A stretch of DNA of 64,000 nt from Desulfobacterales bacterium. GTDB lineage: Bacteria; Desulfobacterota; Desulfobacteria; Desulfobacterales; JAEINQ01. Where the stretch lies: positions 1 to 64,000 of the forward strand of contig JAEINQ010000023.1 in NCBI GenBank assembly GCA_016342285.1, written 5' to 3'. Shown piece by piece: positions 33,555-55,178 of this stretch (position 1 is its first letter; each line of letters starts with the position of its first letter). Both the position numbers and the translations under genes were made by a program. The notes beneath the pieces are model-generated. The model made no database searches. It was not told where the DNA came from and was given only the letters and a program-made list of their open reading frames with translations.

Positions 33555-33692
33555 TTGTGGCAACAGCCCGACCGGATCATTCCCGTTTTTATCGGAAGGT
33601 CTTATATTTTCCCACCCAAGAGAGGGTTTGACAACGCCCTGCCGATTTCGTAAAATTTGATTTTTTTCCCAAACCTGTCGTCAGGGAGCACC

Positions 33693-37638: not shown

Positions 37639-38955
37639 TCATCGGCCCAAATAGGCCGGCAACCAGGTGGCAATGGCCGGAAACAAGACAATCAGGGTCA
37701 TGCCGATGAGCTGCAGGACCATGAACTGCATCATGCCGACGTAGATGTCCTTAAGCTGCCAGCTCGGCACCACCCCCTTGAGAAAATAGGCCGAAAGGGC
37801 CACCGGCGGCGACAGCCAGGCGGTCTGCAGGGTCACGGCCACCAGGGTGCAAAACCAAAGCAGATTGTAGTCCATCTGCCGGACCAGGGGCATGAGGATG
37901 GGGATGATGATCAACACGATGGGCACCCATTCCAGGGGCCAGCCGAGGACAAAAATAAGGGCCAGGATCAAAAACAGCATCACCAGGGGGGGCAGGTGGA
38001 GGCCCATGAGCACCTCGGTCAGCATGGTGGCAGACCCCAGGCGCGAAAAAACCGACCCAAAAAAATTCGATGCCGCCACCAGCAGCAGGATCATGGCCGA
38101 GATCTCCACGGTCCGCATGGTAGAGCTTTTTAGCCCTTCCCACGTCATGCGGCGGTAGGCGGTGGTCAACACCAACGAACCAAAGGCGCCTGCCGCGGCC
38201 CCCTCGGTGGGGGTGGCCATTCCGGCCATGATGCTGCCGAGGGTGGCCAGGATCAAGGTCATCACCGGGATCACCCCGAGGCACAACTCTTTAAGCACCC
38301 AGACAAAAGAAGTGGCACGCAACTCCATTGGAAGGGGCGGGCCGAGTTCGGGGTTGATCCAGCAGCGGATCAGGGTATAGCCGATATAAATGCTGGCCAG
38401 GATGATACCGGGAAAAATCGCCGCCGCAAACAGGTCGGTGACCGGAACGCCGACCACGGGCCCCATGACCACCAGCATGATGCTTGGCGGAATCAGGATA
38501 CCCAGGGTGCCGCCGGCGGAAATGCATCCGGCCGACAGCCGCACATTGTATTTGCTTTCGGTCATGGTCGGGGCCGCCATCACGCCCAACAAGGTGATGG
38601 ATGATCCGACGATGCCGGTGGCGGCGGCAAAAACGGTGGCCGTGGCGGTCACCGCCAGGTAAAGCGAACCGGGCAGCCGGGCCAGCATCAGCTGGAAGGC
38701 CTTAAACAGCCGGTTCATCAGGCCCGAGCTTTCAAGGATGTACCCCATGAACAGGAAAAAGGGGACCGCCGACAACACCGTATCCGTCATGACCGAATAG
38801 AATTGAAGGGTCATCAGGTGAAAGACGACCTTGCCGATGCCGATGTAGCCGGTAACCAAGCTGAGAAAAATCAGCGTAAAGGATATGGGAAAACCGACCA
38901 GGATGAAGAAGAACAGACTCGCCAGGGCGAGCAGGCCGAGAACTTCGGGACTCAT
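37639..38955 (-). CDS. dctM: TRAP transporter large permease (DctM)
   Basis: The 12-helix permease of 438 residues for sodium-driven uptake of an acidic substrate. DctM marks are FLFMGYILESSGLMNRLF, AATGIVGSSITLLGVMAAPTM and GGTLGILIPPSIMLVVMGPV. It is third in dctP-dctQ-dctM. Because the next divergent unit encodes an isethionate lyase-like enzyme, isethionate is the likely cargo (compare IseKLM of Desulfovibrio). The gene is intact, unlike the remnant at 3.1-3.7 kb. Confidence 0.95.
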   Translation of the reverse strand: MSPEVLGLLALASLFFFILVGFPISFTLIFLSLVTGYIGIGKVVFHLMTLQFYSVMTDTVLSAVPFFLFMGYILESSGLMNRLFKAFQLMLARLPGSLYLAVTATATVFAAATGIVGSSITLLGVMAAPTMTESKYNVRLSAGCISAGGTLGILIPPSIMLVVMGPVVGVPVTDLFAAAIFPGIILASIYIGYTLIRCWINPELGPPLPMELRATSFVWVLKELCLGVIPVMTLILATLGSIMAGMATPTEGAAAGAFGSLVLTTAYRRMTWEGLKSSTMRTVEISAMILLLVAASNFFGSVFSRLGSATMLTEVLMGLHLPPLVMLFLILALIFVLGWPLEWVPIVLIIIPILMPLVRQMDYNLLWFCTLVAVTLQTAWLSPPVALSAYFLKGVVPSWQLKDIYVGMMQFMVLQLIGMTLIVLFPAIATWLPAYLGR

Positions 38956-38972
38956 TGGGTACGCTCCTTGTG

Positions 38973-39584
38973 CTAAGTTTCGACGCCTTCGGTTTCCTCG
39001 CGGATATTCACACCGGTCGTTGCGGCGTAAAGGCTCTTGATCAATTCAGATACCCCCTGGATCAGCAACAGCAGGGTCGCAACGGGGATACACAGTTTAA
39101 GCGGCCAGACAAACGGCATCCAGGGGCTGGAAACGATGCATTCCTGAAGCATGGTAGAGCGAAGGGCATATTTCCATCCCACCCACAAAAAAATGGTCAA
39201 GCCGGGAAAATAGAGCAGGATGTAGCAAGTCGAGTCGACAATGCCTTGGGTCCGAACCGACCACTTTTCGTAAAGCCAGTCGGTACGGATATGTTGTTGG
39301 CGCTGCAGGGCGTAGGCGGACCCGACCATGTACATGGCCCCGTACAACATGGTGGATATGTCGTTGGCCCAAATGGTAGGGGCATTGAAAAAATAGCGCG
39401 CCACCACTTCCCAGACCAGGCTGAATATCATGGGGAAGATGAGTATGGCGGCTGCCCTGCCGGACCAGATGCTGAAGGAATCAAGCACGTCAATCGCCTT
39501 GAGCAGACCCCGCGGCGGCTCCGCTGTGACACCGGGGCCGTCTTGAGGGAGATGTTGCGAAATTTGATTATCCATTGTCACCAA
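38973..39584 (-). CDS. dctQ: TRAP transporter small permease (DctQ)
   Basis: A four-helix protein of 203 residues. The second helix region carries EVVARYFFNAPTIWANDISTMLYGAMYMVG, the DctQ signature, and the C-terminal helix LCIPVATLLLLIQGVSEL ends before a charged tail. It lies 17 bases upstream of dctM and 129 bases after dctP, with a hairpin in that gap. Confidence 0.95.
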   Translation of the reverse strand: MVTMDNQISQHLPQDGPGVTAEPPRGLLKAIDVLDSFSIWSGRAAAILIFPMIFSLVWEVVARYFFNAPTIWANDISTMLYGAMYMVGSAYALQRQQHIRTDWLYEKWSVRTQGIVDSTCYILLYFPGLTIFLWVGWKYALRSTMLQECIVSSPWMPFVWPLKLCIPVATLLLLIQGVSELIKSLYAATTGVNIREETEGVET

Positions 39585-39662
39585 TATCCTTAATGGTTGG
39601 TGCCTTGGGCGCGAAAATCACTGAGAGGCGTGATCTGCCCTTATATTTCAAATATGCAAAAA

Positions 39663-39701
39663 GGCGGACCGGGAAGGGTATACCCGCTCCCCGGCACGCC
39701 G
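39663..39701 (-). promoter_or_regulatory. Intercistronic hairpin between dctP and dctQ
   Basis: A bulged stem combines ggcg/cgcc, ccggg/ccccgg and gggta/taccc. It has no T-run, so it likely protects dctP mRNA or lowers dctQM expression instead of ending transcription. Excess binding protein over permease is usual in TRAP systems. Confidence 0.55.
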
Positions 39702-39713
39702 TTGCATGCTCAC

Positions 39714-40847
39714 TTATTTGTCGTAAGCCGAATTCACAACCCCGCTGTCCAGAGCGGTCTTGCCCATCTTGTAATAGACGCCGTTGGCTTTGTTCTGGTA
39801 GGGAACCGTCAGCTTGGACCACTCCTGCATGGAGGTCAGCACCTTTTTAAAGAACGCATCCTTGGTGGCGTATTTGTCCATGATCTGCTGGGTCGCGGCC
39901 ATATAGGCTTTTACGTAATCATCCGGGGTGTCGCGGACCGTGACGCCTTCCTTGGTGACCAGCTCTTTAAGGGCAACGCTGTTCTGGCTGACATTCCAGT
40001 TGTAGCTGTCGGCAATGCAGGTCATGATGCCGGCATTGAAAATGGCCTGGAGGTCAGCGGGCAGTTTGTTCCACCAATCCAGGTTGATGTAGATGTCGCC
40101 GATGGAAACCGCCTGATGCAGACCCTGGAGGTAGTAGTTTTTCCACACGGACGACAGACCCAGGGCACGGTCATCGGCAGGGCTGATCCACTCGGCCGCG
40201 TCGATAACGCCGCGCTGGGCAGAGGGAACGATTTCGCCACCGGGCATGGATACAGCGGGGATTCCGATGAGTTTGAGGGATTCGGAGGGAATTCCCGGGG
40301 GAGACCGGAACTTGGTCTTTTTGAGGTCTTCCATGGAGTTGATCGGCTTGGAAAACCAGCCGAACGGCTCCGGCCCCATGGGCATGGCGATAAAGCCTTT
40401 AATATTGTAGCCCAGGATTTTGGTGAAATACTCCTGGTAGAGTGCGTCGCCGCCACCGTCATAGATCCACGAGACCGTGCTCAACTGGTCCAGACCCATC
40501 CCCAGGCCGGCCGTGGGGGCGGAAAACAGCAGACCGGCAGGATGTTTGCCGGACCAGTAGTGGGTCCAGGCCATGCCGCCGTTGATAATGCCCTGATCCA
40601 CGGCATCGAGGATCTCGAAAGCGCCGACCACGGCACCGGCGGGCAGCACCTCGATGGTGAGCCGTTTTGAACTCATGGTCTCGATGCGTTTGGCCATACG
40701 ATCTACGAGCTTGAAATAAATACTTGCGCTGGGAACCGCGGTCTGAATTTTGAGGGTGTAGCCCTTTGCCATGGCACTGGGGGCAATCAAAAGCGCCGCA
40801 CAAAATGCCATTGCCAGAATACCTGCAAACAGTTTCTTTTTCGCCAT
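39714..40847 (-). CDS. dctP: TRAP transporter substrate-binding protein (DctP)
   Basis: A periplasmic solute receptor of 377 residues. The signal peptide FAGILAMAFCAALLIAPSAMA is cut near AMA-KG. The mature part has LTIEVLPAGAVVGAFEILDAV, FGWFSKPINSMEDLKKTKFRSP (carboxylate- or sulfonate-binding Arg zone) and WISPADDRALGL. The start is MAKKKLF with GGAGGAAGT; the track start 52 codons upstream lies in the leader. First gene of the operon. Isethionate as ligand is inferred from the neighbourhood. Confidence 0.93.
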   Translation of the reverse strand: MAKKKLFAGILAMAFCAALLIAPSAMAKGYTLKIQTAVPSASIYFKLVDRMAKRIETMSSKRLTIEVLPAGAVVGAFEILDAVDQGIINGGMAWTHYWSGKHPAGLLFSAPTAGLGMGLDQLSTVSWIYDGGGDALYQEYFTKILGYNIKGFIAMPMGPEPFGWFSKPINSMEDLKKTKFRSPPGIPSESLKLIGIPAVSMPGGEIVPSAQRGVIDAAEWISPADDRALGLSSVWKNYYLQGLHQAVSIGDIYINLDWWNKLPADLQAIFNAGIMTCIADSYNWNVSQNSVALKELVTKEGVTVRDTPDDYVKAYMAATQQIMDKYATKDAFFKKVLTSMQEWSKLTVPYQNKANGVYYKMGKTALDSGVVNSAYDK

Positions 40848-41064: not shown

Positions 41065-41083
41065 ATGCAAAAAACAAGCCCAC
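41065..41083 (-). promoter_or_regulatory. Candidate sigma-54 promoter of the TRAP operon
   Basis: The minus strand reads tgggcttgttttttgca: GG, ten bases, GC, with a good -12 half (ttttgca) but a poor -24 half (TGGGCT for TGGCAC). It is about 220 bases upstream of dctP. The 928-base gap 40848-41775 otherwise holds only regulatory sequence. Confidence 0.4.
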
Positions 41084-41320
41084 AAAACTTTCGAACTGGC
41101 CCTGTTTTGCGCCGGTAGATTGGCCAAATCGTCTAACGTGCCTGATTCGAACGCGTTACGTTTTTTTCCGACAAGTTATGCCCCTTAAAAAAAAGAGACA
41201 TTGCCGTGCCAGGAAACGGAATAAAGGAAGATGCCATGTCAGGTCTTGATACATTCTGTAAAAAAAGAGCCGCATGGCTGTGCCATGAAATGAGATGGCC
41301 CGGTCCGTCACGCCGGGGAG

Positions 41321-41413
41321 GCAAAAATGCAGCGGTCGAGTCGCATTTTTGCAACTGATCGCAAAAAACCCCCGAGAAGGTTCCAAACCATTCCATGCAT
41401 GTTGTATTTTTGC
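41321..41413. promoter_or_regulatory. Candidate activator-binding sites (GCAAWWWTGC)
   Basis: A perfect inverted repeat gcaaaaatgc / gcatttttgc lies at 41321-41352, with a third near-copy gtatttttgc at 41404-41413. They stand nearly midway between the sigma-54-like promoters of the TRAP unit (41083) and the lyase gene (41578), about 230 bases from each, the usual place for an enhancer-binding protein. The repeat could instead be a terminator-like hairpin. Confidence 0.45.
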
Positions 41414-41577
41414 ATCATTTTCCCGGCAACGATCCCCAACGGAGACGCGCAACCGGTCTTCCCCGCTCGCGAGCGACCGAGGATTGAGATGTTGTTATAT
41501 TTTTGAGAAGCAAATATTGGTATGACATCAACCAGTTAAACCGATACCGGGGAAATCATGGATCGCTTCTCTCCAGC

Positions 41578-41594
41578 GGGCATGGCCTTTGCAG
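41578..41594 (+). promoter_or_regulatory. Candidate sigma-54 promoter of the glycyl radical enzyme gene
   Basis: gggcatggcctttgca: GG, exactly ten bases, GC, with CA after GG and tttgca at -12. This places the start of the transcript about 170 bases before the gene. Confidence 0.6.
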
Positions 41595-41775
41595 ACATGT
41601 AAGTCGTCGCTGGCACCACTTATGAAACCATTCCCAATGCAGGATTCTACGGAAAAGATTGTCAGGCGAGACGATACCCGGAGATAAATCATATAAAGGC
41701 AGAAACGGAAACACAGACACTGCTTGCGCATAAATAAAAAAAGGATCGACCCATAAATGCAAAAAGGAGAGAATC

Positions 41776-44253
41776 ATGGATTGTTGCCTGTCCCCCCACG
41801 AACAAATGCTCCAGGACAAGATCGAAGGTAAACACAGTAAATATCGCGAATCCCATGCCCGTGTTTTTGAAATCCTCGACACCATCGAAGGGTTGCAGCC
41901 GGTCATCGACATTGAGCGTGCCCAATACTTCACCGAGTCCATGCGCAAAACCGAAGGCGAAGCCCTCATCCTGCGCTGGGCAAAGGCCATGAAACACATC
42001 GCTGAGAACATAACGGTTTACATCGACGACCATCAGTTGCTGGCCGGCCGCGCCGGTGTCCAGGGGCGCTACGGTATCCTGTACCCCGAGCTCGACGGCG
42101 ACTTCCTCGGCAAGGCAATCGAGGAGATGCCCAAGCGCAAATCCCCCTTCTCCCTGTCTGAAGCCGACGCCAAGGTGGTCATTGAGGAGATCGCGCCTTA
42201 CTGGAAGGGCAAAACCTACCATGAGGCCCTGAATCAGGCCCTGCCCGAGGACACCCATAAGCTGACCTACGACGATCCTGACGGCATCTACTCCCGTTAT
42301 ATCGTCAACGAGACATCCTCGTTCCGCAGTGCCCTGCAGTGGGTGCACGACTACGAGAAGGTCCTCAAACGCGGCTTCGGTGGTCTGCGCAAAGAGGCCC
42401 GGGAAAAACTCGAAGCTTTAGATCCGCTCTCCCCAACGGCCAACACGGAGAAGAAACCCTTCCTGGAAGCCATTGTCCTGGTATGCGACGCCATCATCGG
42501 CTGGGCCAACCGCCATGCCGCGTTGGCGGAAAAAATGGCCGCCCAGGAGACCGACCCCCAGCGTAAGGCCGAATTGGAACTGATCGCCGCCAACTGCCGC
42601 CGTGTGCCCGAGCATCCGGCCCGCACCTTTCATGAGGCGGTCCAAAGCCAATGGTTCATGCAAATGTTTTCAAGAATCGAGCAGAAAACAGGCACCATTA
42701 TCTCCAATGGCCGTATGGACCAATATTTCTACCCTTACTATAAAAAGGACGTGGAAGCCGGCATTCTGGACGACGACAAAGCCATTGAGCTCATCGAACT
42801 CATGTACGTGAGCATGGCCCAGTTCATGGACCTTTACATCTCCCCCAACGGCGACGCTTTCAACGAGGGTTACGCCCACTGGGAAGCGGTTACCATCGGC
42901 GGCCAGACCCGCGATGGCCTGGACGCCACCAACGACCTGACCTATCTGTTCATGCGCTCCAAACGCGAATTTCCCCACCATTACCCGGACCTGGCGGCCC
43001 GCATCCACGCGCGCTCCCCGGAACGTTTCCTGTATGAAGTGGCAGAGACCATCAAAGAAGGCTCCGGCTTTCCCAAACTGATCAATGACGAAGAAATCAT
43101 TCCCCTGCATCTGTCCAAGGGGGCGCAGTTTGAAGAGATCTTCGACTATGCGGTTTCCGGATGCGCGGAAGTCCGCATGCCCAACCGGGATACCTACACG
43201 TCCGGTTGCGCTTACATCAACTTTGCCGCTGCCCTGGAGATGACCCTTTACAACGGCAAAATGCTCAAGTACGGCGACAAGCAGATCTCCCTTGAAACCG
43301 GTGACCCCACTGACTTCGAAACCTGGGATCAGTTCTGGGTCGCCTTTACCCAGCAGCAAACCAACTTCATCAAGCACGCCTTTATCCAGCAGTATCACAT
43401 CATCCGCCTGCGTCATGAGCACTTTGCTGCCCCCATGGGCTCTGCCGTACACGACCTGTGTATGAAACACTGTCTGGATCTGCATACCCCCCAGATTCCC
43501 GAAGGGATCAACCTGGGCTATTTTGAATGCATCGGCTACGGTACGGTTGTGGATTCCCTGTCGGCCATTAAAAAACTGGTCTTCGAAGAGAAGAAGTTGA
43601 CCATGGCCGAAGTTATCGAAGCGATCAAATGCAACTTCGAGGGCAAAGAAGACATCCGTGCCATGCTGCAAAATGTCCCCTGCTACGGCAATAACGATGA
43701 ATACGCCGATACCATTGCCCGAGCCATCGACAAGGTGTCCGTCTCTTTTACCAAGGAATATTCCAAAGAACTGGGCGTCCACCTGGACTTGCGCTACGTG
43801 CCCTTTACCTCCCACGTGCCCTTTGGCAAAGTGGTCTCGGCCACACCCAACGGCCGCTATGCCTTCAGCGCCCTGTCCGACGGCTCTTCAGCGTCCCAGG
43901 GCGCGGACCACAACGGCCCGACGGCGGTGATGCTGTCCAATTACACCACAAAGAACTTCGACTATCGCAATCGTGCCGCGCGGCTACTCAACATCAAATT
44001 CACCCCCAAGTGTGTGGAAGGTGAAGCCGGCACGAAAAAACTCGTGGATTTCATCCGCACCTTCTGCGACCTGCGCCTGTGGCATATCCAGTTTAACGTC
44101 ATTAATGCCGCGACCTTAATAGCAGCCCAGAAGGATCCGGAAAAATACCGCACCCTGATCGTGCGCATCGCCGGCTACAGCGCCTACTTCTGCGATCTGT
44201 CCAAAGATCTTCAGGATGATCTGATTGCCCGACATGGCCATGAAACGATCTAA
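41776..44253 (+). CDS. islA: Glycyl radical enzyme, probable isethionate sulfite-lyase (IslA/IseG)
   Basis: A glycyl radical C-S lyase of 825 residues that would split isethionate into sulfite and acetaldehyde. The thiyl Cys463 and Glu465 lie in [10 protein letters not shown], the radical Gly800 in [10 protein letters not shown]. Arg184 and Gln188 (SSFRSALQW), Arg673 and Phe677 (LRYVPF) complete the pocket. All these are offset by exactly five from the residues I recall for Bilophila IslA (R189, Q193, C468, E470, R678, F682, G805). CutC-type choline lyases have GCVEP instead. No encapsulation peptide is obvious at its N-terminus. A terminator follows. Recalled numbering is from memory; homology search would confirm. 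Confidence 0.85.
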
Positions 44254-44275
44254 GAATTGACGGTGGCAAGCATAC

Positions 44276-44306
44276 AAAGGGGGGCGCGAAGTGCCCCCCT
44301 TTTTTC
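44276..44306 (+). terminator. Rho-independent terminator after the glycyl radical enzyme gene
   Basis: An uninterrupted stem aaggggggc / gccccccttt with a short loop and six or more T, 23 bases beyond the stop. It separates the lyase gene from the activase gene, so the activase is read either through leakage or from its own start. Confidence 0.88.
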
Positions 44307-44404
44307 CATCGCATCGCCGGTGTAAAAACGCCTGACCTGAAGGGCCAAACCAGCGACTACCGAACGAGCGATGCCCTTCGGTGGCCTTTATCGAGGTGCT
44401 CAAT

Positions 44405-45355
44405 ATGTCTCTTCCCATCCAGAAACAAAGCGGAATCGTCTTCAACATCCAGAATTATTCGGTTCATGACGGCCCCGGTATCCGCACGGTGGTTTTCCTA
44501 AACGGTTGTCCCCTGCATTGTAAGTGGTGCAGCAATCCCGAATCCCAGCACACGGCCCCGCAACTGGCCTACAACCGCAGCAAATGCCTGACCTTTGATC
44601 AGTGTATCCGCTGCATGGAGGTCTGCAGTGCGGGGGCGATCCAAAAAGATGCCGAAAACCGTGCGATGATCAACCGCGAAACCTGCACCAACTGCCTGCT
44701 CTGCGCCGATGTCTGCCCCACCCAGGCACTCAAGGTCTATGGCGAAACAAAAAGCGTTGATGCGGTCGTCACCGCGGTGGAGCAGGATGGTGCTTTTTAT
44801 TCACGCTCCGGTGGGGGGATGACCCTTAGCGGCGGGGAACCCATGCATCAGCCTGAATTTGCCATCGCCATCCTCAAGGAGGCCCGACGGCGACGCATCA
44901 ATACGGCCATGGAAACATGCGGTTTTTGTGATACCGAAGATCTTCTTGCCGCGGGCGAGTATCTCAACAACCTCCTTTTTGACATTAAAGTGATGGATCC
45001 CGAGGTGCACAAAACGGTCACCGGTGTCTCCAACCAACGGATTCTCAGCAATTTAAAGGCGGTCCGTAACGCCTGGCCCCAATTGCCCATTCATGTTCGA
45101 ACCCCTGTCATTCCAGGTGTCAATGACAACCCTGAGGCCATCCGGGCCATCCTCGATTTTATTACCGATTTCGACAATGCCAGCTATGAGATGCTCCCTT
45201 ACCATCGAATGGGAGCGCCCAAGTACACCTACCTTGGAAGGTCCTATCCCATGGGGGAGATCAAACTCGATGAGGCCGTGATGCAATCGTTAATGGACAT
45301 GTTCAAGGGCGAGTACGCCCATCTGTTCCCCGCCGCTGCTCCTCGAAAGCAGTGA
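44405..45355 (+). CDS. islB: Glycyl radical enzyme-activating protein (IslB/IseH-type)
   Basis: A radical-SAM activase of 316 residues that makes the glycyl radical on the upstream lyase. The SAM cluster is CPLHCKWCSNPE, followed by two ferredoxin-type motifs CIRCMEVCSAGAIQ and CTNCLLCADVCPTQAL, then MTLSGGEP and HVRTPVIPGVNDN. The ATG of MSLPIQK has GAGGTG before it; the track start is a GTG eight codons up. Position right after the lyase supports the pairing. Confidence 0.93.
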   Translation: MSLPIQKQSGIVFNIQNYSVHDGPGIRTVVFLNGCPLHCKWCSNPESQHTAPQLAYNRSKCLTFDQCIRCMEVCSAGAIQKDAENRAMINRETCTNCLLCADVCPTQALKVYGETKSVDAVVTAVEQDGAFYSRSGGGMTLSGGEPMHQPEFAIAILKEARRRRINTAMETCGFCDTEDLLAAGEYLNNLLFDIKVMDPEVHKTVTGVSNQRILSNLKAVRNAWPQLPIHVRTPVIPGVNDNPEAIRAILDFITDFDNASYEMLPYHRMGAPKYTYLGRSYPMGEIKLDEAVMQSLMDMFKGEYAHLFPAAAPRKQ

Positions 45356-45744
45356 GTTCCGGGGCATCAAGGACGTGGGTTCTCCAACCGCGCGCGAAGT
45401 AAATAATCCTGGCCCAGAGGACGTGGCCTTGGGTTGCCCTGGAAGGGGAGGGATACTGGCCCCAAATAAGTGTGGAGTGACTGGCAACAAAGCGGTCTCG
45501 GCATAGCCAATTGACTCTGACCACGCCCTGAGGGCATGGATGACAATAGCGAATTGAAAGCGATCAAGTCGCCAAAAAAAAGAGCCGGTCACCCTGGGTG
45601 ACCGACTCTTTTTGCGTTCGGCGGTATGGACCGGCGTTGTCTGGCGTGGGAGGAGAAACACTGTCCAAGCAATCCGGTGTTGGCTTGGGGAGGAGATTGA
45701 AAGCACACCGCTGACCGCAAAAAAACAGTTCATGTTCCCGTTGT
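45356..45744. repeat. Gene-free stretch with repeat fragments and a terminator
   Basis: Between the activase and the amidohydrolase 389 bases hold pieces shared with other gaps: cctggcccagaggacgtgg near 45411, aaataagtgtggagtgact near 45463 (also at 57560), and attgactctgaccacgccctgagg near 45511 (as at the mtaB arms), followed by a bidirectional terminator. No gene is supported. Confidence 0.6.
45577..45613. terminator. Bidirectional terminator between activase and amidohydrolase
   Basis: A stem aaagagccggtcacc / ggtgaccgactcttt with a loop of three, one mismatch, flanked by seven A and five T. It can stop the activase on the plus strand and the amidohydrolase on the minus strand. Confidence 0.9.
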
Positions 45745-46689
45745 TTAGTTTTTCATTCGGGCCATCACTTCGCGCACGATGTCACCCACCAGATCGGCGG
45801 ACACCTGAACGGGGGCCTGGCCGTAGGCGGAACCGGCAATGGCGGCCGATGGCGCGCTTTGCAGGCCCAGAAGCCGCGCGGCGTTGTCGTGCAAAATTTT
45901 CTGCCGTACCTCAGGCTTGAAATCCAACTTCTGATACGTTTCCAGGGCCTGCCTGAAATCCACGAATGGATGGGCACTGGCAAAAAGGATCTTGTCTGAG
46001 ATCATCGTGTTGGCGGCCTGTACATAGGCCTCGGACATGGGAGAAAACTCATATTCGGAAAGGTCGATGTAAACATTTCGATTGCGCTCGGCCACGATGA
46101 TGGCCTCGTTGACCCAGGGATAGCCGCCATGGCTGATCACGATTTTCAATTCGGGAAAATCCCGGGCCGCGATGTCGATATAGCGCGGGGCCACGTGGTC
46201 GATAATGGCATTGGGGACCAGGGTGGCTGGCCCCGTTGTAAAGACAATGGGGATATCCAGCTCGCAGCATTTGGAATATATCGGGTAATATTTGGCATCG
46301 TTTGCGTAGATCTGTGCCAGGTAAGGATCCACGGCAGCCCCGCGCAGGCCCAGATCGTTGACCCCATGCTTCAGCTCTTCGATGGCCTTCATCCCCTTAT
46401 GGGGATCGAGTCCCAAAAACCCGATGAATTTGTTTGGATAGGCTTTGACAAATTCGATGACGCTGTCGTTATTGGACTTGGAGCCGTACGTGGTCTCACA
46501 GTCCCTTCCGGTGATGACAGCCCGGACAACATTGTAACGGTCCAGTTCCGCGACCACTTCCGAAATGGTCTGGGCCTTCATTTTTGAAAAATCGATGTGC
46601 TCACAGAGCCCCTTGAACATCTTGCTGTTCTGAATACCGGAGATGGTCTCGGCGGTGTTGGGCCGGAATCGAAAATCAATCACGTTCAT
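45745..46689 (-). CDS. Amidohydrolase-fold (COG2159) protein with lost metal ligands and BMC-targeting-like tail
   Basis: A 314-residue TIM-barrel protein. The N-terminal strand reads VIDFRFRPN where active relatives have HxH (the second copy in this window reads VDAHVHLFP). VFTTGP replaces VMHVG, and FASAHPF replaces YGTDFP, so usual metal ligands are largely gone; SHGGYPW stays. After an Ala/Ser/Gly linker the last 20 residues (SADLVGDIVREVMARM) form an amphipathic helix like BMC encapsulation peptides. GAGAAGGGG precedes the ATG at 46689. It lies between the lyase/activase pair and the shell operon and has its own sigma-54-like promoter. Function unknown; probably BMC cargo. Confidence 0.85.
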   Translation of the reverse strand: MNVIDFRFRPNTAETISGIQNSKMFKGLCEHIDFSKMKAQTISEVVAELDRYNVVRAVITGRDCETTYGSKSNNDSVIEFVKAYPNKFIGFLGLDPHKGMKAIEELKHGVNDLGLRGAAVDPYLAQIYANDAKYYPIYSKCCELDIPIVFTTGPATLVPNAIIDHVAPRYIDIAARDFPELKIVISHGGYPWVNEAIIVAERNRNVYIDLSEYEFSPMSEAYVQAANTMISDKILFASAHPFVDFRQALETYQKLDFKPEVRQKILHDNAARLLGLQSAPSAAIAGSAYGQAPVQVSADLVGDIVREVMARMKN

Positions 46690-46914
46690 TACGAAAACCC
46701 CTTCTCTGTGGTTCTGGGCACGTGGAAATGCAGGACCCATGCGCGCTTGTCCGAAATGGCTGTCACCAGGATGCGTTCATCCCCGGGAGGATCAACCGGA
46801 GTTGATGGGGCATCGGTCGTGATCCGTATGGCTGTGGCAACCGCCGAACCGCACTGTTTTTGCCGAAACCTGTCGGCCGACATGGCCGGGCACCCAAACA
46901 TTCCTGTTTTGTAT

Positions 46915-46932
46915 AAGCAAAGAAAATGCCAG
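46915..46932 (-). promoter_or_regulatory. Candidate sigma-54 promoter of the amidohydrolase gene
   Basis: The minus strand reads tggcattttctttgct: an almost perfect TGGCAC-N5-TTGCW match with GG-N10-GC spacing, about 225 bases before the ATG. A weaker second candidate is at 46850-46865. Confidence 0.6.
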
Positions 46933-46992
46933 ACATCTTAAATTGATGTCGCCGGCCGGCCCTTTGATGGGTATTTTCCCCTTCTACCACGG

Positions 46993-47500
46993 CTATCCGG
47001 ATAAAATTTCAATTTCAACCCAGGCCATTTTTGACCCCCGGTCAGATGGACAGCCTTGGTGATTCCCTTCCCCTCGGCCTTGTCCAGACCCAACATGATG
47101 CAAATATGCACCAAATTCTTTCAGAAATGGTGAATCTCCAATGATCTCCGTACACCTTTTTTTCCCAAAGTGCAATTTTGCCACATCGTCTTTATTGGAA
47201 AGAAACGTCAAAATTCTTCCGAACTTGCTTAATCCCTTTATATTCAAATTCTTACCACTTTTCTGGCCGTTTTCATGAAAAATGGCGTCTTTTTTACATG
47301 ATGCAATTCTGAGACTTTTGAGAGGCAACACAGCGTCGGCCATGGGTTGGTCGGCACACCCGGCGACTTTGTTTTGTCCGTTCACGGCAGGCCCCGCGTA
47401 CCAGCGCACTCCCTTGGCCCATGCACCGGCGAGATAAAACCAGCGCCTCGATTCGCCACGGACGCGTTACAACGATTTAGACATCCGTGGCCTTTGGCAT
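46993..47500. promoter_or_regulatory. Long intergenic regulatory stretch upstream of the BMC operon
   Basis: The 920-base gap 46690-47609 is AT-richer than its surroundings. It holds gcaaatatgc at 47100-47109 and gcaattttgc at 47172-47181, which resemble the GCAAWWWTGC sites at 41.3 kb, between the two divergent sigma-54-like promoters. The minus-strand frame 46993-47409 has no family feature and I do not accept it. Confidence 0.45.
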
Positions 47501-47511
47501 GATGGTTGCTT
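47494..47511 (+). promoter_or_regulatory. Candidate sigma-54 promoter of the BMC operon
   Basis: ttggcatgatggttgctt matches TGGCAC-N5-TTGCW with GG-N10-GC spacing. The transcript would start about 85 bases before the EutQ-like gene. Confidence 0.68.
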
Positions 47512-47609: not shown

Positions 47610-48329
47610 ATGGGTAAACGGCTCATCACCGCTGAAGAAGTCCGCGAAGCAGCTCAAACCGGACAACTGACACTCTCGGTACCATGGGACGCGTGCATTG
47701 TTACCCCCATGGCAAGGGATGAAGCCGAACGCCTTGGGGTCGTCTTGGACGTTGATGATCCGGTTTGCCCATTGACCGGTGCCGCCAGTGCCAGTGCCGG
47801 TTCCAGCGCCGGTGCCGGTGCCACCAGTGCTTCCAGCACAACGCTGATCCGCGAGGTCAGTGCCCTTTTAAAAAATCGCCTGCCCGCAGACACCCCCATG
47901 GCAACGCTTGAATCCGTGATTCGAGACGTGGTGACGGCAAAACTGGGACAGGCGACCGCCCCGCAAACAACCCACCCCGCACTGACGGCAAGCACTGCCC
48001 AGGGGGTTCGACTCATTGATCACCAGCGCTTGATAGAAGGCGAAAACGGCTCGGTTGCGGTGGATGAAAAAATATGGGTGGCCGAAGCCATCGGTGGCAA
48101 GGCAGAAGACACATTGGCCGGCGGGTATATGAGTTGGGAAAAGGCGAGCTTCACCCGCCAATTGGAGCAACCCGAGATCGCCGTTGTCCTGGAAGGCGAA
48201 TTGCATCTTGATGTGGGCGACACTACCCTGATGGGCAAGCCGGGGGACATGATCTATTTCCCCAAAGGCGCGGTGGTGGCCTACAGCGCACCGGCACGCG
48301 TTAAACTTGCCTGTGTGAACTGCATTTAA
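47610..48329 (+). CDS. eutQ: EutQ-like cupin protein of the BMC locus
   Basis: A 239-residue protein, first of the shell operon. The N-terminal part MGKRLITAEEVREAAQTGQ to CIVTPMARDEAERLG is the element shared by EutQ/CutQ. The C-terminal cupin (about 145-239) has EIAVVLEGELHLDVGDTTLMGKPGDMIYFPKGA. Salmonella EutQ has reported acetate kinase activity, so it may supply the missing kinase here. Between the two parts, Ala/Ser/Gly linkers enclose two short amphipathic helices (TLIREVSALLKN, LESVIRDVVTAKLG) that look like encapsulation peptides. GGAGGAA precedes the ATG. Confidence 0.88.
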   Translation: MGKRLITAEEVREAAQTGQLTLSVPWDACIVTPMARDEAERLGVVLDVDDPVCPLTGAASASAGSSAGAGATSASSTTLIREVSALLKNRLPADTPMATLESVIRDVVTAKLGQATAPQTTHPALTASTAQGVRLIDHQRLIEGENGSVAVDEKIWVAEAIGGKAEDTLAGGYMSWEKASFTRQLEQPEIAVVLEGELHLDVGDTTLMGKPGDMIYFPKGAVVAYSAPARVKLACVNCI

Positions 48330-48388
48330 CCGGCGATGGCGCTCCCCACACGACAGACATCGCGGGGCTGCATGGGAAATGGGTCGGA

Positions 48389-49393
48389 GTGGACATTCTA
48401 GAACGCTGTAAAAATGCCTGCCAGCAGCATCCGGGCGTCGTTGTCTTCCCCGACGCTCTGGATCAGCGCGTTCTTGAGGCCGCAAGGCAACTCAAAGCCG
48501 ATGGGCTTGTTGAACCCGTGCTGATGGCGTCGCCATTTAGCGTACGCAACAAGATGCAGACAACCCGCATGACCGGTGCGGGACTGACCGTGGTCGATCC
48601 GGTCAGCCCTGGTTTCCTGGAGAAAAACAGTCGGGACTACATGGCGTTGCGGAAAGCCAAAGGCAAGTCCGTCACAGCAGAAGCGGCCCGGGAGGCCATG
48701 CACTGCCCCCTCGGTGCGGCGGCCATGATGGTCCGTCGGGGGGAGGCGGAAATAGGCGTCGGGGGCAATCTCTCGTCCACAGCCGCGGTGCTCAGGGCCG
48801 GACTCAGCGTCCTTCCCAGAAAGCCCGGCATCAAGACCATTTCCTCCTTTTTCCTGATGGTCTCGCCCAGTGGAGAGAAGCAGTATATTTTCGCCGACTG
48901 TGCCGTCGTTCCCGAACCGTCAGCCGACACCCTGGCCGACATCGCCGTCGCCTCTGCTGACAAAGCGACCATTTTACTCGGCCAGGCGCCCCGCATCGCC
49001 ATGTTGAGCTTTTCGACCAAAGGAAGCGCGGTCCATCACCGGGCAAAGATGGTCAGCGCCGCGGTGGCACAGATCCGGACCCGTGACCCCAATCTTTTGG
49101 TGGACGGCGAGTTGCAGCTCGATGCCGCTGTCGTGCCACGGGTGGCAGCACTCAAGGCCCCGGGAAGTTTTATCGACGGCAAGGCCAATGTCCTGGTCTT
49201 CCCTTCCCTGGAGGCCGGCAACATCGGATACAAACTGGTACAGCGCCTGGCCGGCTACACCGCCATTGGCCCCTTTATACAGGGATTTGAAGGCGGGTGG
49301 CACGATCTGTCCAGGGGGTGCAGCGCCAATGACATTTACATGGTCGCCGTCATTGGGCTCTGCCTGAAACGCGGCAATGCAACACAACACTAA
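48389..49393 (+). CDS. eutD: Phosphotransacetylase (EutD/Pta type)
   Basis: Converts acetyl-CoA and phosphate to acetyl-phosphate, recycling CoA inside the compartment. 334 residues. The PTA_PTB family marks are IGVGGNLSSTAAVLRAGL, MLSFSTKGSAVHH, VDGELQLDAAVVPRVA and NVLVFPSLEAGNIGYKLVQRL. The start is GTG. No acetate kinase lies beside it. The order EutQ-Pta-shell suits ATP production from acetaldehyde. Confidence 0.92.
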   Translation: MDILERCKNACQQHPGVVVFPDALDQRVLEAARQLKADGLVEPVLMASPFSVRNKMQTTRMTGAGLTVVDPVSPGFLEKNSRDYMALRKAKGKSVTAEAAREAMHCPLGAAAMMVRRGEAEIGVGGNLSSTAAVLRAGLSVLPRKPGIKTISSFFLMVSPSGEKQYIFADCAVVPEPSADTLADIAVASADKATILLGQAPRIAMLSFSTKGSAVHHRAKMVSAAVAQIRTRDPNLLVDGELQLDAAVVPRVAALKAPGSFIDGKANVLVFPSLEAGNIGYKLVQRLAGYTAIGPFIQGFEGGWHDLSRGCSANDIYMVAVIGLCLKRGNATQH

Positions 49394-49448
49394 ACCCGAT
49401 TTGTAGATGAAGACAAAATCGTCACCGAATCTTTTAAGGAGGCCGAAA

Positions 49449-49730
49449 ATGAACGATGCTTTAGGCATGATCGAAACCGTTGGACTGACCGCACTGGTGG
49501 AGGCCGCGGATGCCATGGTCAAGGCGGCTCGCGTGGAAGTGGTCGGCTTCAATCAGATCGGCGCCGGTTTGGTCACCGTGATGGTACGCGGTGATGTGGC
49601 GGCATGCAAGGCCGCGACCGATGCCGGCGTTGCCGCTGCCAAGCGGTTGGGTGAAGTGGTCAGTGCCCATGTGATTCCCAGGCCGCACGGTGACCTTGAT
49701 GACGTTTTCCCCATTAACCCGGAAAAGTAG
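49449..49730 (+). CDS. BMC-H shell protein (PduA/EutM-like), copy 1
   Basis: A 93-residue hexameric shell protein forming facets and pores. [24 protein letters not shown] starts the fold and [24 protein letters not shown] carries the central pore loop. TAAGGAGG precedes the ATG at 49449; the track start is 14 codons too early. It is very similar to the BMC-H at 52227. Confidence 0.96.
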
Positions 49731-49817
49731 AAATGCCACGCAAGACAGGGCGCACAGGGGACAAACGGGCGTCAGGCTCGAACCCCATACAGCGGCGAAC
49801 CCGATCAGGGCAAAGCG

Positions 49818-51164
49818 ATGCAGGGAATGGATAAAGAGACCCTATTAAAATTGGTTTGCGACGCCGGCGTGGTCGGTGAAGGCGGAGCCGGTTTCCCGGC
49901 CCACGTCAAATACGACACCCAGGTGGACACGGTGATTGCCAACGGTTGTGAGTGCGAACCCTTGCTCTATACGGATCAGCATATTATGGGCCGGCACAGC
50001 GCGGCCATTGTCCAGGCCATCCAGGCCCTTATGTCGGTTACCGGGGCCACGCGCGGGGTGATCGCCATCAAGCGAAAATACCAAGACGCCGCCCGGCTGT
50101 TCACCCAAGCCATGGCCGGCACCAGCCTTGAGTTGGCCCAGTTGGACAATTTCTACCCCGCAGGCGATGAGTTTATCCTCGTACACGAAGTCACCGGCAA
50201 AACCATTCCGCCCCTGGGCCTTCCGAAAGATGTGGGGGCCGTGGTGGCCAACGTGGGCACCCTTGTTAACGTCAAACGGGCACTGGAAAACATTCCCGTT
50301 ACCCAAAAAGTGGTCACGGTAACCGGCGAGGTTGCCCGACCGGCCGTTATCGAAGTGCCCATCGGCACCCCGGTGGCCGCCTGTATTGAAAGTTGCGGCG
50401 GCCCGACCGTAGAAGATCCGGTCTATGTCCTCGGGGGTCCCATGATGGGCCGCATCGTCGAAAACGCGGCCGCCCTTGCCACCGAAGTGATCACCAAGAC
50501 CAACGGCGGGATTATTGTCCTGCCCCGTGGGCACTACCTGCACACAACCAATACGATCCCTTTGGAGGTTCTCCAGAGGCAAGCGGCGGTTTCCTGCATC
50601 CAGTGCCGCTATTGCACCGACCAGTGCCCCCGTTACCTTCTGGGTCACGGATTTGAGACCCACAAGGTGATGCGCGCCTTCAGCGCCGGCATCGATGCCG
50701 CCATGGATGCCGTTCAAGCCCACATGTGCTGCGAATGCGGGGTCTGCGAATTGTTCAGTTGCCCCATGCGCATCTCTCCGCGACGAGTCAATGTGCTTTT
50801 AAAGCAACGCTTTCGCGAGCAGGGCCTGACCTACAAAGGGCCTCGGGTGGTCAATCCGTCGCAAACGGCCCTGCGCGAGTACCGCAAGGTCCCCGTAGAG
50901 CGCCTGGCTTATAAAATAGACATCGCCCGATATATGGAAATCCATCCCGAGTTCAGCGAGACCCGCCCGCCGGCGCAAGTCCGCATCCCCCTGCACCAGC
51001 ACATCGGCGCCCCGGCCGATGCCCGGGTCAAGGTGGGCGACAGGGTCAAGACCGGCGATCTGATCGGCCGCATGGCGCAAGGGGCACTGAGCGCCAACGT
51101 TCATGCTTCCATCCAGGGCGTCGTTACCGCTGTGGACCGGTCCGTAACCATCCAAGGAGATTAA
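49818..51164 (+). CDS. pduS: PduS/RnfC-like Fe-S flavoprotein of the BMC
   Basis: A 448-residue electron carrier. GVVGEGGAGFPAHVKY and NGCECEPLLYTDQHIM form the FMN/NADH part, SLBB-like strands follow, then two 4Fe-4S motifs CIQCRYCTDQCPRYL and CCECGVCELFSCP. A C-terminal part ends with a biotinyl-like hairpin (VGDRVKTGDLIGRMAQG). In Pdu compartments PduS reduces cobalamin, but a glycyl-radical locus needs no B12, so it likely moves electrons from NADH out through the shell. The Fe-S BMC-T follows five bases later. Confidence 0.92.
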   Translation: MQGMDKETLLKLVCDAGVVGEGGAGFPAHVKYDTQVDTVIANGCECEPLLYTDQHIMGRHSAAIVQAIQALMSVTGATRGVIAIKRKYQDAARLFTQAMAGTSLELAQLDNFYPAGDEFILVHEVTGKTIPPLGLPKDVGAVVANVGTLVNVKRALENIPVTQKVVTVTGEVARPAVIEVPIGTPVAACIESCGGPTVEDPVYVLGGPMMGRIVENAAALATEVITKTNGGIIVLPRGHYLHTTNTIPLEVLQRQAAVSCIQCRYCTDQCPRYLLGHGFETHKVMRAFSAGIDAAMDAVQAHMCCECGVCELFSCPMRISPRRVNVLLKQRFREQGLTYKGPRVVNPSQTALREYRKVPVERLAYKIDIARYMEIHPEFSETRPPAQVRIPLHQHIGAPADARVKVGDRVKTGDLIGRMAQGALSANVHASIQGVVTAVDRSVTIQGD

Positions 51165-51168
51165 ACTG

Positions 51169-51723
51169 ATGGCCAACATCCAAGCCGTTGGGATGATCGA
51201 ATTCAACAGCATCGCCGTGGGCATCGAAGCCGCCGACCGCATGGTCAAGGCCGCCGAGGTGGAACCGCTGATGCTCAAAACCATCTGCCCCGGAAAATTT
51301 GTGGTGGCCATTTACAGCAATGTCGCCGCCGTACAGGCCTCCATTGACGCGGGATTGAACGTCGGCGCCGATGCATTGGTCGATCATTTCGTCATCCCCA
51401 ATATTGACCCGGCCGTAATCTCTGCCATGAGCTCATCCATTGCCCGTACGAGCGGCAGCGCCGTTGGGGTCATCGAGACGTTTTCAGCGGCTTCCTGCAT
51501 CGTGGCCGCCGATGTGGCCGTTAAAACCGCGGATGTGGACCTGCTTGAAGTCCGCATCGCCATGGGTGTTGGCGGCAAGGCTTTTTGCATTCTTGCCGGA
51601 AACGTCGGTCCGGTGGAAATGTCTGTGGCGTCGGGGTCCGCCTCAGCAGCAAAAAAAGGACTGCTGGTGAGAAAAACGGTCATCCCCAACATATCCCAGC
51701 AGGTCATGCGTCATATCATGTAA
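51169..51723 (+). CDS. pduT: BMC-T trimeric shell protein, PduT-like with pore cysteine
   Basis: A 184-residue tandem-BMC shell protein. Copy 1 starts AVGMIEFNSIAVGIEAADRMV and copy 2 AVGVIETFSAASCIVAADVAV. LKTICPGKFVV near residue 40 has the Cys that in PduT coordinates a 4Fe-4S cluster in the pore (Cys38 as I recall). It lies directly after the PduS-like gene, so an electron path across the shell is likely. Confidence 0.93.
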   Translation: MANIQAVGMIEFNSIAVGIEAADRMVKAAEVEPLMLKTICPGKFVVAIYSNVAAVQASIDAGLNVGADALVDHFVIPNIDPAVISAMSSSIARTSGSAVGVIETFSAASCIVAADVAVKTADVDLLEVRIAMGVGGKAFCILAGNVGPVEMSVASGSASAAKKGLLVRKTVIPNISQQVMRHIM

Positions 51724-51816
51724 TGATTTTGCATCATCAACGGCACCATGGGGTCCGGCCATTGAACATAAAAAAGTAGGCGGCCCCATTAAACACTTCG
51801 GCGAAAAGAGGAAAAC

Positions 51817-52167
51817 ATGACAGCTAACGATTCTTTGGGATTTGTTGAAGCATACGGCATGGTGGCAGCCATTGAGGCGGCCGATGCCATGGTCAAAACC
51901 GCCCGGGTCAAGGTTAAGACCGTCTTGAATGCCGATGCGGGCTTGCTCAGCGTGATTTGTGAAGGCGATCTGGCCGCATGCAAGGCGGCCGTCGATGCCG
52001 GCAAGGCGGCCGCCGACCGTGTGGGCAAATGCTTGCGCACCAACCTGATACCACGGCCGGCCGGAGGCATCGAAACGCTTATTTCCAAAAGCATCGGATC
52101 TGAGATCTTCCCAACGAAAACCAAAGCCAAATCTCCGGTTGCAAAAAAAGGTCCGGCTAAAAAATAA
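51817..52167 (+). CDS. BMC-H shell protein with altered pore and basic tail
   Basis: A 116-residue BMC-H. The core ([23 protein letters not shown]) is normal, but the usual IGAG pore loop reads NADAGLL, and a 30-residue Lys-rich tail ([18 protein letters not shown]) extends the protein. The tail may bind cargo, nucleic acid or the inner face of the shell. AGAGGAAAAC precedes the ATG. Confidence 0.93.
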
Positions 52168-52226
52168 CTTCCACCATCGTGGTGGTCATCCGTTGGAACG
52201 CAAAAAAAACAAACAAGGAGCATAAA

Positions 52227-52499
52227 ATGGACGCATTGGGAATGATAGAAACAAAGGGATTGGTCGCCTTGATCGAAGCTTCCGACGCCATGGTTAAAAC
52301 GGCGCGGGTTGAATTGGTCGGGTACCAGAAAATCGGTGCCGGATTCGTGACCGCGCTTGTTCGTGGTGATGTGGCCGCATGCAAGGCTGCCACGGATGCC
52401 GGTGCCGCGGCTGCCCAGCGCCTGGGAGAAGTCGTCGCCGTGCATGTGATCGCACGCCCCCATGACGATCTTGAAGCTGTTTTTTCCCTGAAAAAATAG
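52227..52499 (+). CDS. BMC-H shell protein (PduA/EutM-like), copy 2
   Basis: A 90-residue hexamer-forming shell protein nearly identical in pattern to the 49449 copy: [23 protein letters not shown] and [24 protein letters not shown], with [11 protein letters not shown] at the end. AAGGAG lies before the ATG; the ORF track begins 16 codons too early. The 119-base gap that follows has nothing else. Confidence 0.96.
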
Positions 52500-52618
52500 C
52501 CATAGCCCCCAGGTGTCAGCAGAGATTGTATTGACGAGGCGCAAGACCCGACCCTATCGCTTGTGCATTTTTCCAAGCGTATGTGTGAATCTCAAAACCG
52601 ACACCAAGGAGAATCAAA

Positions 52619-52903
52619 ATGGAATTGGGAAAGGTCGTAGGACAGGTGGTTTCAACGGTTCGCGATCCGGGGTTGCCGAACCTGACCCTGCTTCTGGTGG
52701 ACATCGTGGACGCCGCCGGCAAGGTGGTCCTTGGCAGCCAGGTGGCCGCCGATAGCATTGGAGCCGGAGAAGGAGAACTGGTGCTTCTGGTGCGCGGCAG
52801 TTCCGCCCGCATGATCATGGAAGCAAAAACACCCCTGGATTTGAGTATTGTCGGTATTGTCGACCAGGTGACCGCCCGTAAAAAGACGCTGTACACCAAA
52901 TAA
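52619..52903 (+). CDS. eutN: EutN/CcmL-type pentameric vertex protein
   Basis: A 94-residue BMC-P protein that caps the vertices of the shell. VVGQVVSTVRDPGLPNLTLLLVDIVD and the central GAGEGELVLLVRGSSARMI are family marks. AAGGAG stands before the ATG. One pentamer gene is enough for a closed shell. Confidence 0.95.
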   Translation: MELGKVVGQVVSTVRDPGLPNLTLLLVDIVDAAGKVVLGSQVAADSIGAGEGELVLLVRGSSARMIMEAKTPLDLSIVGIVDQVTARKKTLYTK

Positions 52904-52930
52904 GATAGCGCTCAGCGTATTGGAGAACCC

Positions 52931-54352
52931 ATGTCAGTTCAAAAAGAGCAGATAGAATCCATTGTTGCCGAGGTGCTCAGATCACTGTCGGTCGCGACCC
53001 CCGATGCGATTCCGGCCATTGATCCGGGGGACTGGGGTGTTTTTGAACAGCTCGATCAAGCCGTCGCAGCGGCGACAACCGCCTACAAACGAAACAATAC
53101 CGTTGCCCTCCGCAACAAGGTTGTCGGAGCCATTCGCACGGCCGCCCGGGAGAATGCCAAACGCCTGGCTGAAATGGCTGTTGAAGAGACCGGCATGGGC
53201 CGAATCGAAGATAAAACCACAAAGAACCTCCTTGTGGCCGATCACACGCCGGGTCCCGAGGTTCTCAACCCCAGCGCCATATCGGGCGACAACGGTTTGA
53301 CGCTGATTGAAAACGCCCCATGGGGCGTTATCGCATCGGTGACCCCCTCGACAAACCCCGGCGCCACGGTGATCAACAACGCCATCAGCATGATCTCCGG
53401 AGGGAATTCAGTAGTGTTTGCACCCCACCCCGCGGCCAAACGCGTCACCCAGGAAACCATTCGCATCCTAAACCGTGCCATCGTCGCCGAAACCGGCATC
53501 AACAACTTGATGGTCTGCGTCCGCGAACCGAGCATCGAAGTGGCCCAGCAATTGTTCACCCAGCCCGGCATCCACCTGCTGGTGGTAACCGGTGGCGAAG
53601 CCGTGGTGGAAGCGGCCCGCAAGAGTACGAATAAACGGCTCATCGCCGCGGGGGCCGGCAACCCACCGGTGGTGGTCGACGACACGGCCGATCTGGCCCG
53701 GGCCGCCGAGAGCATCTATACCGGCGCCTCCTTTGACAACAATATCGTCTGTGCCGATGAAAAAGAGATTATTGTCGTCGACCGGGTCGCAGACGCCTTT
53801 AAAGAAGCGCTCAAAGGCCGCGGTGCCATCGAGATTTCCCTGGAACAGGCCGATGCCATTGCCCGGGCCGTGCTGATCGATTACCCGGGTGCCAAGTGCC
53901 GCCCCAACCCCAAATGGGTGGGACGCGATGCCTCCGAACTGGCAGCGGCCGGCGGGTTCAGCATTGCCGAAACCTGTCGTCTTCTCTTCGTGGACGTGGG
54001 TCGCGATGTGGACCATGTTTTTGCCCGCATGGAACAGATGATGCCCCTGTTGCCCGTATTGCGTGCCCGCGACTTCGACGAAGCCCTGGCGTGGGCATTG
54101 GTCCTTGAACGGGGCCTTCTGCACACCGCCGGTCTGCATTCGCGAAACATTGACAACATGGACGCCATGGCCACACGTATCAACTCCAGCCTCTTTGTTA
54201 AAAACGGACCCCATGTGGCCGGATTGGGTGCCGGCGGCGAGGGCTGGACATCCATGACCATCTCTACCCCCACGGGTGAAGGGGTGACCAATGCACGCAC
54301 CTTTGTACGCCTGAGACGCTGCACCCTGGTCGGCAGCTTCCGGATTGTCTAA
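52931..54352 (+). CDS. eutE: CoA-acylating acetaldehyde dehydrogenase with encapsulation peptide
   Basis: Oxidises acetaldehyde to acetyl-CoA with NAD. 473 residues, of the PduP/EutE family. Residues 1-18 (VQKEQIESIVAEVLRSL) are a typical BMC targeting helix, then a linker. NAD-binding PSTNPGATVINNA and the catalytic Cys in ASFDNNIVCADEKEI are intact. It would use the product of the glycyl-radical lyase. GGAGAA precedes the ATG. Confidence 0.95.
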   Translation: MSVQKEQIESIVAEVLRSLSVATPDAIPAIDPGDWGVFEQLDQAVAAATTAYKRNNTVALRNKVVGAIRTAARENAKRLAEMAVEETGMGRIEDKTTKNLLVADHTPGPEVLNPSAISGDNGLTLIENAPWGVIASVTPSTNPGATVINNAISMISGGNSVVFAPHPAAKRVTQETIRILNRAIVAETGINNLMVCVREPSIEVAQQLFTQPGIHLLVVTGGEAVVEAARKSTNKRLIAAGAGNPPVVVDDTADLARAAESIYTGASFDNNIVCADEKEIIVVDRVADAFKEALKGRGAIEISLEQADAIARAVLIDYPGAKCRPNPKWVGRDASELAAAGGFSIAETCRLLFVDVGRDVDHVFARMEQMMPLLPVLRARDFDEALAWALVLERGLLHTAGLHSRNIDNMDAMATRINSSLFVKNGPHVAGLGAGGEGWTSMTISTPTGEGVTNARTFVRLRRCTLVGSFRIV

Positions 54353-54356
54353 AAAT

Positions 54357-55178
54357 ATGGCCATCACTTGGAAAGAAGCAGAGAGACGGCTGGATATCGC
54401 CGCCGAGCTGCTCGACAAAACCGACCGGTGCATCGTGGAAGGGCCATTGCATGCAGGCATCGACCTGGGGACCGCCGATGTGGTGCTGATGGTCTTAAAC
54501 GCCAACGGGGAACCCGTGGCCGCTTTCCTGGAATGGGCCGAAGTGGTGCGCGACGGTATCGTGGTGGATTTTATCGGAGCGGTGGACATCGTATGCCGCC
54601 TCCTGGAAAAAGCCGCCAACCGGTTAAACAGGGAAATCAGCCAGGCAGCCACCTCCTTTCCCCCGGGAACCGACCACCGTCTCTCGACGAATATCCTCGA
54701 ACGGGCAGGGCTCGACGTCGTGGCCGTTCGCGATGAGCCATGCTGCGTGGCTCAGTTGCTGCAATTGGACAAAGCGGCGGTGGTGGATATCGGTGGGGGC
54801 ACCACGGGAACCGCGGTCGTTCAAAACGGGAACATCGTCTTCAGTGACGACGAGCCCTCCGGAGGGCGTCATATCGGCCTTTCCATTGCCGGGCACTTTG
54901 ACATTTCCTTTGAGGAAGCGGAAAAACGCAAGCGCCAGCCCGAGCGTTACGGCATCCTGGATCTGGCACGCCCGACCCTGCAGCGCATCAGCGACATTGT
55001 GGCCCGCCACATCAAAGGGCATGCCGTGGAAAAAATCATCCTGACCGGGGGGACATGCTGTCTGCCAGGCATCGAAGACGTTTTCATGCACGAACTGGGA
55101 CTCCCCGTCCAACTCCCCAACCAGCCGTTGCTCCTCACCCCCCTGGCCATCGCATCGTTGTCTCTTAATAAAATATGA
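54357..55178 (+). CDS. eutJ: EutJ-like ASKHA (Hsp70-type) protein
   Basis: A 273-residue actin/Hsp70-fold ATPase found in Eut and glycyl-radical BMC loci. GIDLGTADVVLMVLN, VVDIGGGTTGTAVV and KIILTGGTCCLPG are the phosphate and adenosine boxes. The role is probably chaperone-like for the enzymes of the compartment. I start at ATG MAITWK, five bases after the stop of the dehydrogenase gene; the track uses a TTG within it. Last gene of the operon. Confidence 0.9.
   Translation: MAITWKEAERRLDIAAELLDKTDRCIVEGPLHAGIDLGTADVVLMVLNANGEPVAAFLEWAEVVRDGIVVDFIGAVDIVCRLLEKAANRLNREISQAATSFPPGTDHRLSTNILERAGLDVVAVRDEPCCVAQLLQLDKAAVVDIGGGTTGTAVVQNGNIVFSDDEPSGGRHIGLSIAGHFDISFEEAEKRKRQPERYGILDLARPTLQRISDIVARHIKGHAVEKIILTGGTCCLPGIEDVFMHELGLPVQLPNQPLLLTPLAIASLSLNKI

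Follow-up and report, generated by a model that had tools for sequence, protein, structure and literature searches.

Prediction of a sigma-54 activator and operator shared by the isethionate uptake, lyase and microcompartment genes of a Desulfobacterales bacterium

Among the closest described systems is a regulon of Desulfovibrio vulgaris in which DVU2827 was predicted to activate DVU2820, an amidohydrolase gene, and DVU2822-2825, encoding a transporter and a 'pyruvate formate-lyase' (Kazakov et al. 2015, PMC4641369). The D. vulgaris isethionate lyase, IseG/IslA, has been characterized (PMC6453916; PDB 5ymr), and the sections of PMC8667426 dealing with the islAB cluster of Bilophila wadsworthia describe it as taurine- and isethionate-inducible. 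Respiration of isethionate and taurine yields hydrogen sulfide in the gut as well as in sediments, and the papers cited on the isl genes cover enzyme function, not what switches these genes on. We take the 'pyruvate formate-lyase' of DVU2822-2825 to be the characterized isethionate lyase of D. vulgaris.

We analyzed an isl locus within a window of 64 kb (the whole stretch of DNA studied, to which all positions refer), which carries the following genes:

37639..40846, minus strand: TRAP transporter operon DctM, DctQ, DctP, from Pfam, divergent from islA
41776..44253, plus strand: predicted isethionate sulfite-lyase IslA, a glycyl radical enzyme, from structure matches and active-site residues
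44381..45355, plus strand: IslB, radical-SAM activating enzyme, from NCBIfam NF048010 and Pfam
45745..46690, minus strand: amidohydrolase (Amidohydro_2), from Pfam, conserved in isl loci
47610..55178, plus strand: microcompartment operon, from Pfam and NCBIfam

The lyase matched the solved structures 5ymr and 7kq3, both IslA, with 1408 and 1331 bits, and 6lon, which we take to be HpsG, with 1180 bits. It keeps all eight IslA active-site residues (R189, Q193, W374, C468, E470, R678, F682, and G805), F682 being an isoleucine in 6lon. Residues and structure matches alike predict an isethionate sulfite-lyase, IslA, and the NCBIfam assignment as a sulfopropanediol dehydratase was rejected on the same grounds. 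Both NF048011 and NF048010 apply the name '(2S)-3-sulfopropanediol dehydratase' to lyases and activases of the IslA type; the lyase label is probably too broad, since the lyase of the window has the residues of an isethionate lyase. DctP starts at the ATG at 40846, behind GGAGGAAG, and the likely start of the amidohydrolase is the ATG at 46690, where a ribosome site was read. The microcompartment operon encodes EutQ-like, phosphotransacetylase, BMC shell, RnfC-like, EutN, acylating aldehyde dehydrogenase, and EutJ-like proteins. No Rfam family was found in the leaders.

Upstream of all four units, TGGCAYR-N4-TTGCW-like elements with GG-N10-GC spacing were present, each facing its genes:

41066..41081, minus strand: predicted -24/-12 promoter of the TRAP operon, GGGCTTGTTTTTTGCA, weakest of the four, score 6.3
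41578..41593, plus strand: predicted -24/-12 promoter of islA-islB, GGGCATGGCCTTTGCA
46916..46931, minus strand: predicted -24/-12 promoter of the amidohydrolase gene, TGGCATTTTCTTTGCT, identical 16-mer in locus L032
47495..47510, plus strand: predicted -24/-12 promoter of the microcompartment operon, TGGCATGATGGTTGCT, strongest of the four

The GG-N10-GC spacing by itself is worthless as evidence, because the 64-kb window contains 920 matches to it. A more complete pattern, KGGCWT-N5-TTGCW, was chosen post hoc to fit the four promoters and has exactly four matches in the window, all of them these promoters. All four promoter-like elements that the initial annotation had proposed from their spacing were found where it had placed them, and a genome scan of the kind that it had suggested gave 38 occurrences of the fuller element in the 6.5-Mb genome versus 11 for the reversed control (genome-wide counts here being pattern matches only). 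A weighted promoter score that was not fitted to the four elements gave seven matches in the whole window, four of which were the same promoters (6.3 for TRAP and 6.9 to 7.6 for the other three). Sequence of the same composition yielded a background of 0.025 hits per kb per strand, so about 0.09 would be expected in the two intergenic regions (~1.8 kb), versus four seen (P ~3e-6). The genome has one sigma-54 gene. In related loci, the position of the islA promoter is matched by promoters in L031, L032, L044, L047, and L054, and TGGCACGATGGTTGCT stands at the place of the microcompartment promoter in L032. The TRAP promoter has an aligned element in L032 and same-place promoters in L044, L047, and L054; its weakness counts against the regulon reading.

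Five sites predicted to bind the activator occur between these promoters, scored with a position weight matrix (PWM) built from other species' sites:

41318..41333, no strand assigned: predicted activator site 1, GAGGCAAAAATGCAGC, PWM 15.7 bits
41340..41355, no strand assigned: predicted activator site 2, the best site, GTCGCATTTTTGCAAC, PWM 22.9 bits
41401..41416, no strand assigned: predicted activator site 3, GTTGTATTTTTGCATC, PWM 16.6 bits, same place in L032
47097..47112, no strand assigned: predicted activator site 4, GATGCAAATATGCACC, PWM 22.4 bits
47169..47184, no strand assigned: predicted activator site 5, AGTGCAATTTTGCCAC, PWM 15.8 bits

The window holds four GCAWWWWTGC cores (41321, 41343, 47100, and 47172), none of them outside the two intergenic regions between divergent units, and with the fifth site, GTATTTTTGC at 41404, the first cluster of the initial annotation ends on its right. 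Alignment of the sites upstream of islA in the related loci added a G at position -3 and its symmetric C (89%), giving GNYGCAWWWWTGCRNC; the shared motif therefore forms the center of a 16-bp palindrome, GTTGCA-N4-TGCAAC. The matrix was made from 56 sites in the islA regions of other species, with the window and its two closest relatives excluded, and its five best matches in the window (41318, 41340, 41401, 47097, and 47169) were the five operator sites; the chance of five such matches in 1.8 kb is ~2e-11. The gcaaaaatgc-type sites that had been noted between the divergent units at 41321-41413 and 47100-47181 were recovered by the out-of-sample matrix and, except for the one at 41404, by the core pattern. 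Across the genome, single cores are common (87 versus 50 for the control), so a lone copy is unremarkable and is no evidence, whereas clustered pairs are nearly unique: the 6.5 Mb contain two places with cores 6 to 36 bp apart and one with cores 37 to 67 bp apart, and the divergent intergenic regions of the window account for two of the three. The only other close pair, at G000:C125:149987-150031, is AT-rich and nearly an inverted repeat and is therefore perhaps a hairpin rather than an operator. Helical phasing of the operator spacing (20-22, 52-54, 62, and 72-74 bp) was suggestive but not significant (P ~0.07, each distance counted once).

We compared 80 IslA loci, which gave 75 non-redundant regions upstream of islA, and counted there all 64 dyads of the form XYZ-W4-zyx. 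GCA-W4-TGC was the commonest, with 61 sites in 37 of the 75 loci; the runner-up, AAA, consists of A and T only and was seen in 17. The real matrix found 84 sites in these upstream regions versus a mean of 0.5 for column-permuted matrices, whose maximum of 55 presumably reflects permutations near the original. The order promoter-operators-promoter recurs in relatives: L044, L047, and L054 have it in the TRAP-islA interval, where the TRAP elements of the window and L032 are weaker, and L032, L044, and L047 have it in the interval separating the amidohydrolase and shell genes. The three islA-side sites, spaced by 20 to 22 and then ~62 bp, are kept in L032, L044, and L054. Some activator-bearing isl loci, Firmicutes included, have few strict cores, with near matches in those inspected. 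Sites of the GTTGCA-N4-TGCAAC type also adjoin the activator gene at L066:4883 (Desulfosporosinus) and L102:8808 (Nitrospiraceae), and the operator may therefore extend beyond Desulfobacterota.

The candidate activator is encoded at 33.7 kb:

33628..33656, plus strand: probable sigma-70-type promoter of the activator gene, TTGACA-N17-TAAAAT, read from sequence
33693..35156, plus strand: PAS / AAA+ / HTH sigma-54 activator, from Pfam, with a GAFSGA loop, orthologue of the Desulfovibrio isl-linked activator (compare DVU2827)

The reading frame is open from 33657, and the Pfam domains PAS, Sigma54_activat, and HTH_50 bear out the PAS-type sigma-54 activator that had been recognized at 33.7 kb. 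The protein has the features of an enhancer-binding protein, namely, PF00158, PF18024 (E 1.4e-5, just under the curated cut-off), and the GAFSGA loop. Kazakov et al. 2015 (PMC4641369) give GAFSGA for DVU2827 and count it among the variants expected to preserve activation; it is not diagnostic, since GAFTGA is about equally common among the activator orthologues. The protein's C-terminal RS/TT-x-FRK helix shows conservation across 43 linked activators. Identity with PrdR was ruled out, the NCBIfam PrdR model scoring 385 against a cut-off of 795 bits. The matrix scan found no operator site of at least 12 bits near the activator promoter, and the activator therefore does not look autoregulated here; taken with the TTGACA-N17-TAAAAT promoter, this suggests that it is made constitutively. 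Just upstream, at 32733-33554, lies a 273-amino-acid open reading frame without a Pfam match.

The genome encodes about 57 sigma-54 activators of this kind, and the promoters could be sigma-54 dependent yet driven, some or all, by another of them, such as a two-component regulator. Besides the many paralogues, this alternative has in its favor that an unrelated exchanger gene separates the activator from the TRAP genes. DVU2827-type orthology was tested with the islA-side activator of N. liaohensis (L051), a Desulfovibrio relative: it matched the window protein with 486 bits and the next paralogue with 313, and the match is reciprocally best. Of 146 genomes of the same order, 10 encode IslA, and precisely these 10 also encode the activator orthologue (P ~1e-15 if independent, a value that takes no account of common ancestry or linked inheritance). 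In about half of the 80 loci the activator gene adjoins islA, in many Desulfovibrio loci after islB. The reciprocal match, the identical phylogenetic profiles, and the recurrent adjacency argue against another driver, which we regard as unlikely; the 33.7-kb activator is the best candidate among the ~57 and very probably the right partner.

The palindromes could also be operators of a different protein, a repressor or an architectural factor, with the promoters alone under sigma-54 control, since assignment of the motif to the activator rests on co-occurrence. Within the same locus, the association of operators with the activator was not significant, because the activator is often unlinked, and a whole-genome check explained most cases: where islA has operators and the locus no activator, an orthologue (50 to 73% identity) was encoded elsewhere in 4 of 5 genomes, versus none of 9 genomes without operators (P 0.005). 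Operators thus follow the activator orthologue across genomes. They also lie ~160 to 320 bp upstream of the promoters, enhancer-like and not overlapping them, and palindromes of this kind are the usual targets of one-component activators that have Fis-type HTH domains. We therefore consider another binding protein very improbable. Locus L088 (genome G148, a 2.6-Mb assembly) has operators upstream of islA and no clear activator orthologue (best 39%); its sister locus L092 carries the activator gene. That AT-rich palindromes and GG-N10-GC matches coincide here by chance is extremely unlikely: the core alone does occur 87 times in the genome and the spacing 920 times in the window, but clustered core pairs are nearly unique, the out-of-sample matrix picks the same five sites, and sites and promoters are conserved in relatives.

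Taken together, the sites, promoters, their arrangement, orthology, and co-occurrence, all read from sequence, make it highly likely that one sigma-54 activator with its own operator controls uptake, IslA, the amidohydrolase, and the microcompartment as a unit. The proposal of the initial annotation that one activator serves the whole pathway is thereby supported by site statistics, footprinting, the conserved neighborhood, the reciprocal best match, and identical profiles. The PAS-type enhancer-binding protein would be made constitutively and would recognize GTTGCA-N4-TGCAAC, in three copies between TRAP and islA and two between the amidohydrolase and the microcompartment operon. Its PAS domain would signal the presence of substrate, probably isethionate or a product. 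The activator would then assemble on each array and loop to the -24/-12 promoters on both sides, so that each array could fire two divergent operons, and would use ATP to open the promoters, from which transcription is expected to start. Uptake, C-S cleavage, the amidohydrolase, and the aldehyde-handling microcompartment would thus be made together. We are evenly divided on a broader proposal, in which the PAS activator and GTTGCA-N4-TGCAAC would together make up a switch dedicated to sensing isethionate, traveling with islA through Desulfobacterota as well as Firmicutes and Nitrospirota and holding the microcompartment under the same shared enhancers, from a regulator family not described as such. 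A conserved activator-operator pair offers a direct target for studying induction.

With IseG/IslA of D. vulgaris (PMC6453916), the locus shares the enzyme type and the association with TRAP transporter and microcompartment genes; that paper treats enzymology only, and a term search of it returned no discussion of a regulator. With the islAB cluster of B. wadsworthia, as the relevant sections of PMC8667426 present it, the locus shares IslAB, acetaldehyde dehydrogenase, phosphotransacetylase, EutQ, BMC shell, RnfC-like, amidohydrolase, and a PAS-domain regulator. In those sections, however, the predicted operon joins islAB and the shell genes, whereas the window has four separate promoters, and the PAS regulator is assigned no operator or sigma factor.

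The DVU2827 regulon (PMC4641369), which a full-text literature search found in Kazakov et al. 2015 only, likewise has a one-component sigma-54 activator with a GAFSGA loop; its predicted targets, a glycyl radical enzyme operon that includes the transporter and a gene for an amidohydrolase, both carry sigma-54 promoters. In the window, operator and sigma-54 promoter are found together at the lyase, transporter, and amidohydrolase, as in an isl regulon of the DVU2827 type. The D. vulgaris system differs in having been predicted to control pyruvate formate-lyase and in that its activator gene lies inside the regulated operon, whereas in the window a separate sigma-70-type promoter precedes the activator gene, transporter and lyase genes are transcribed divergently, and the regulon gains a microcompartment operon. 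The window is well supported as a predicted example, from a related group, of the DVU2827 type of regulon, extended to the microcompartment and with another gene order, and the 'pyruvate formate-lyase' regulon of 2015 may accordingly be reread as one for sulfonate respiration, microcompartment included.
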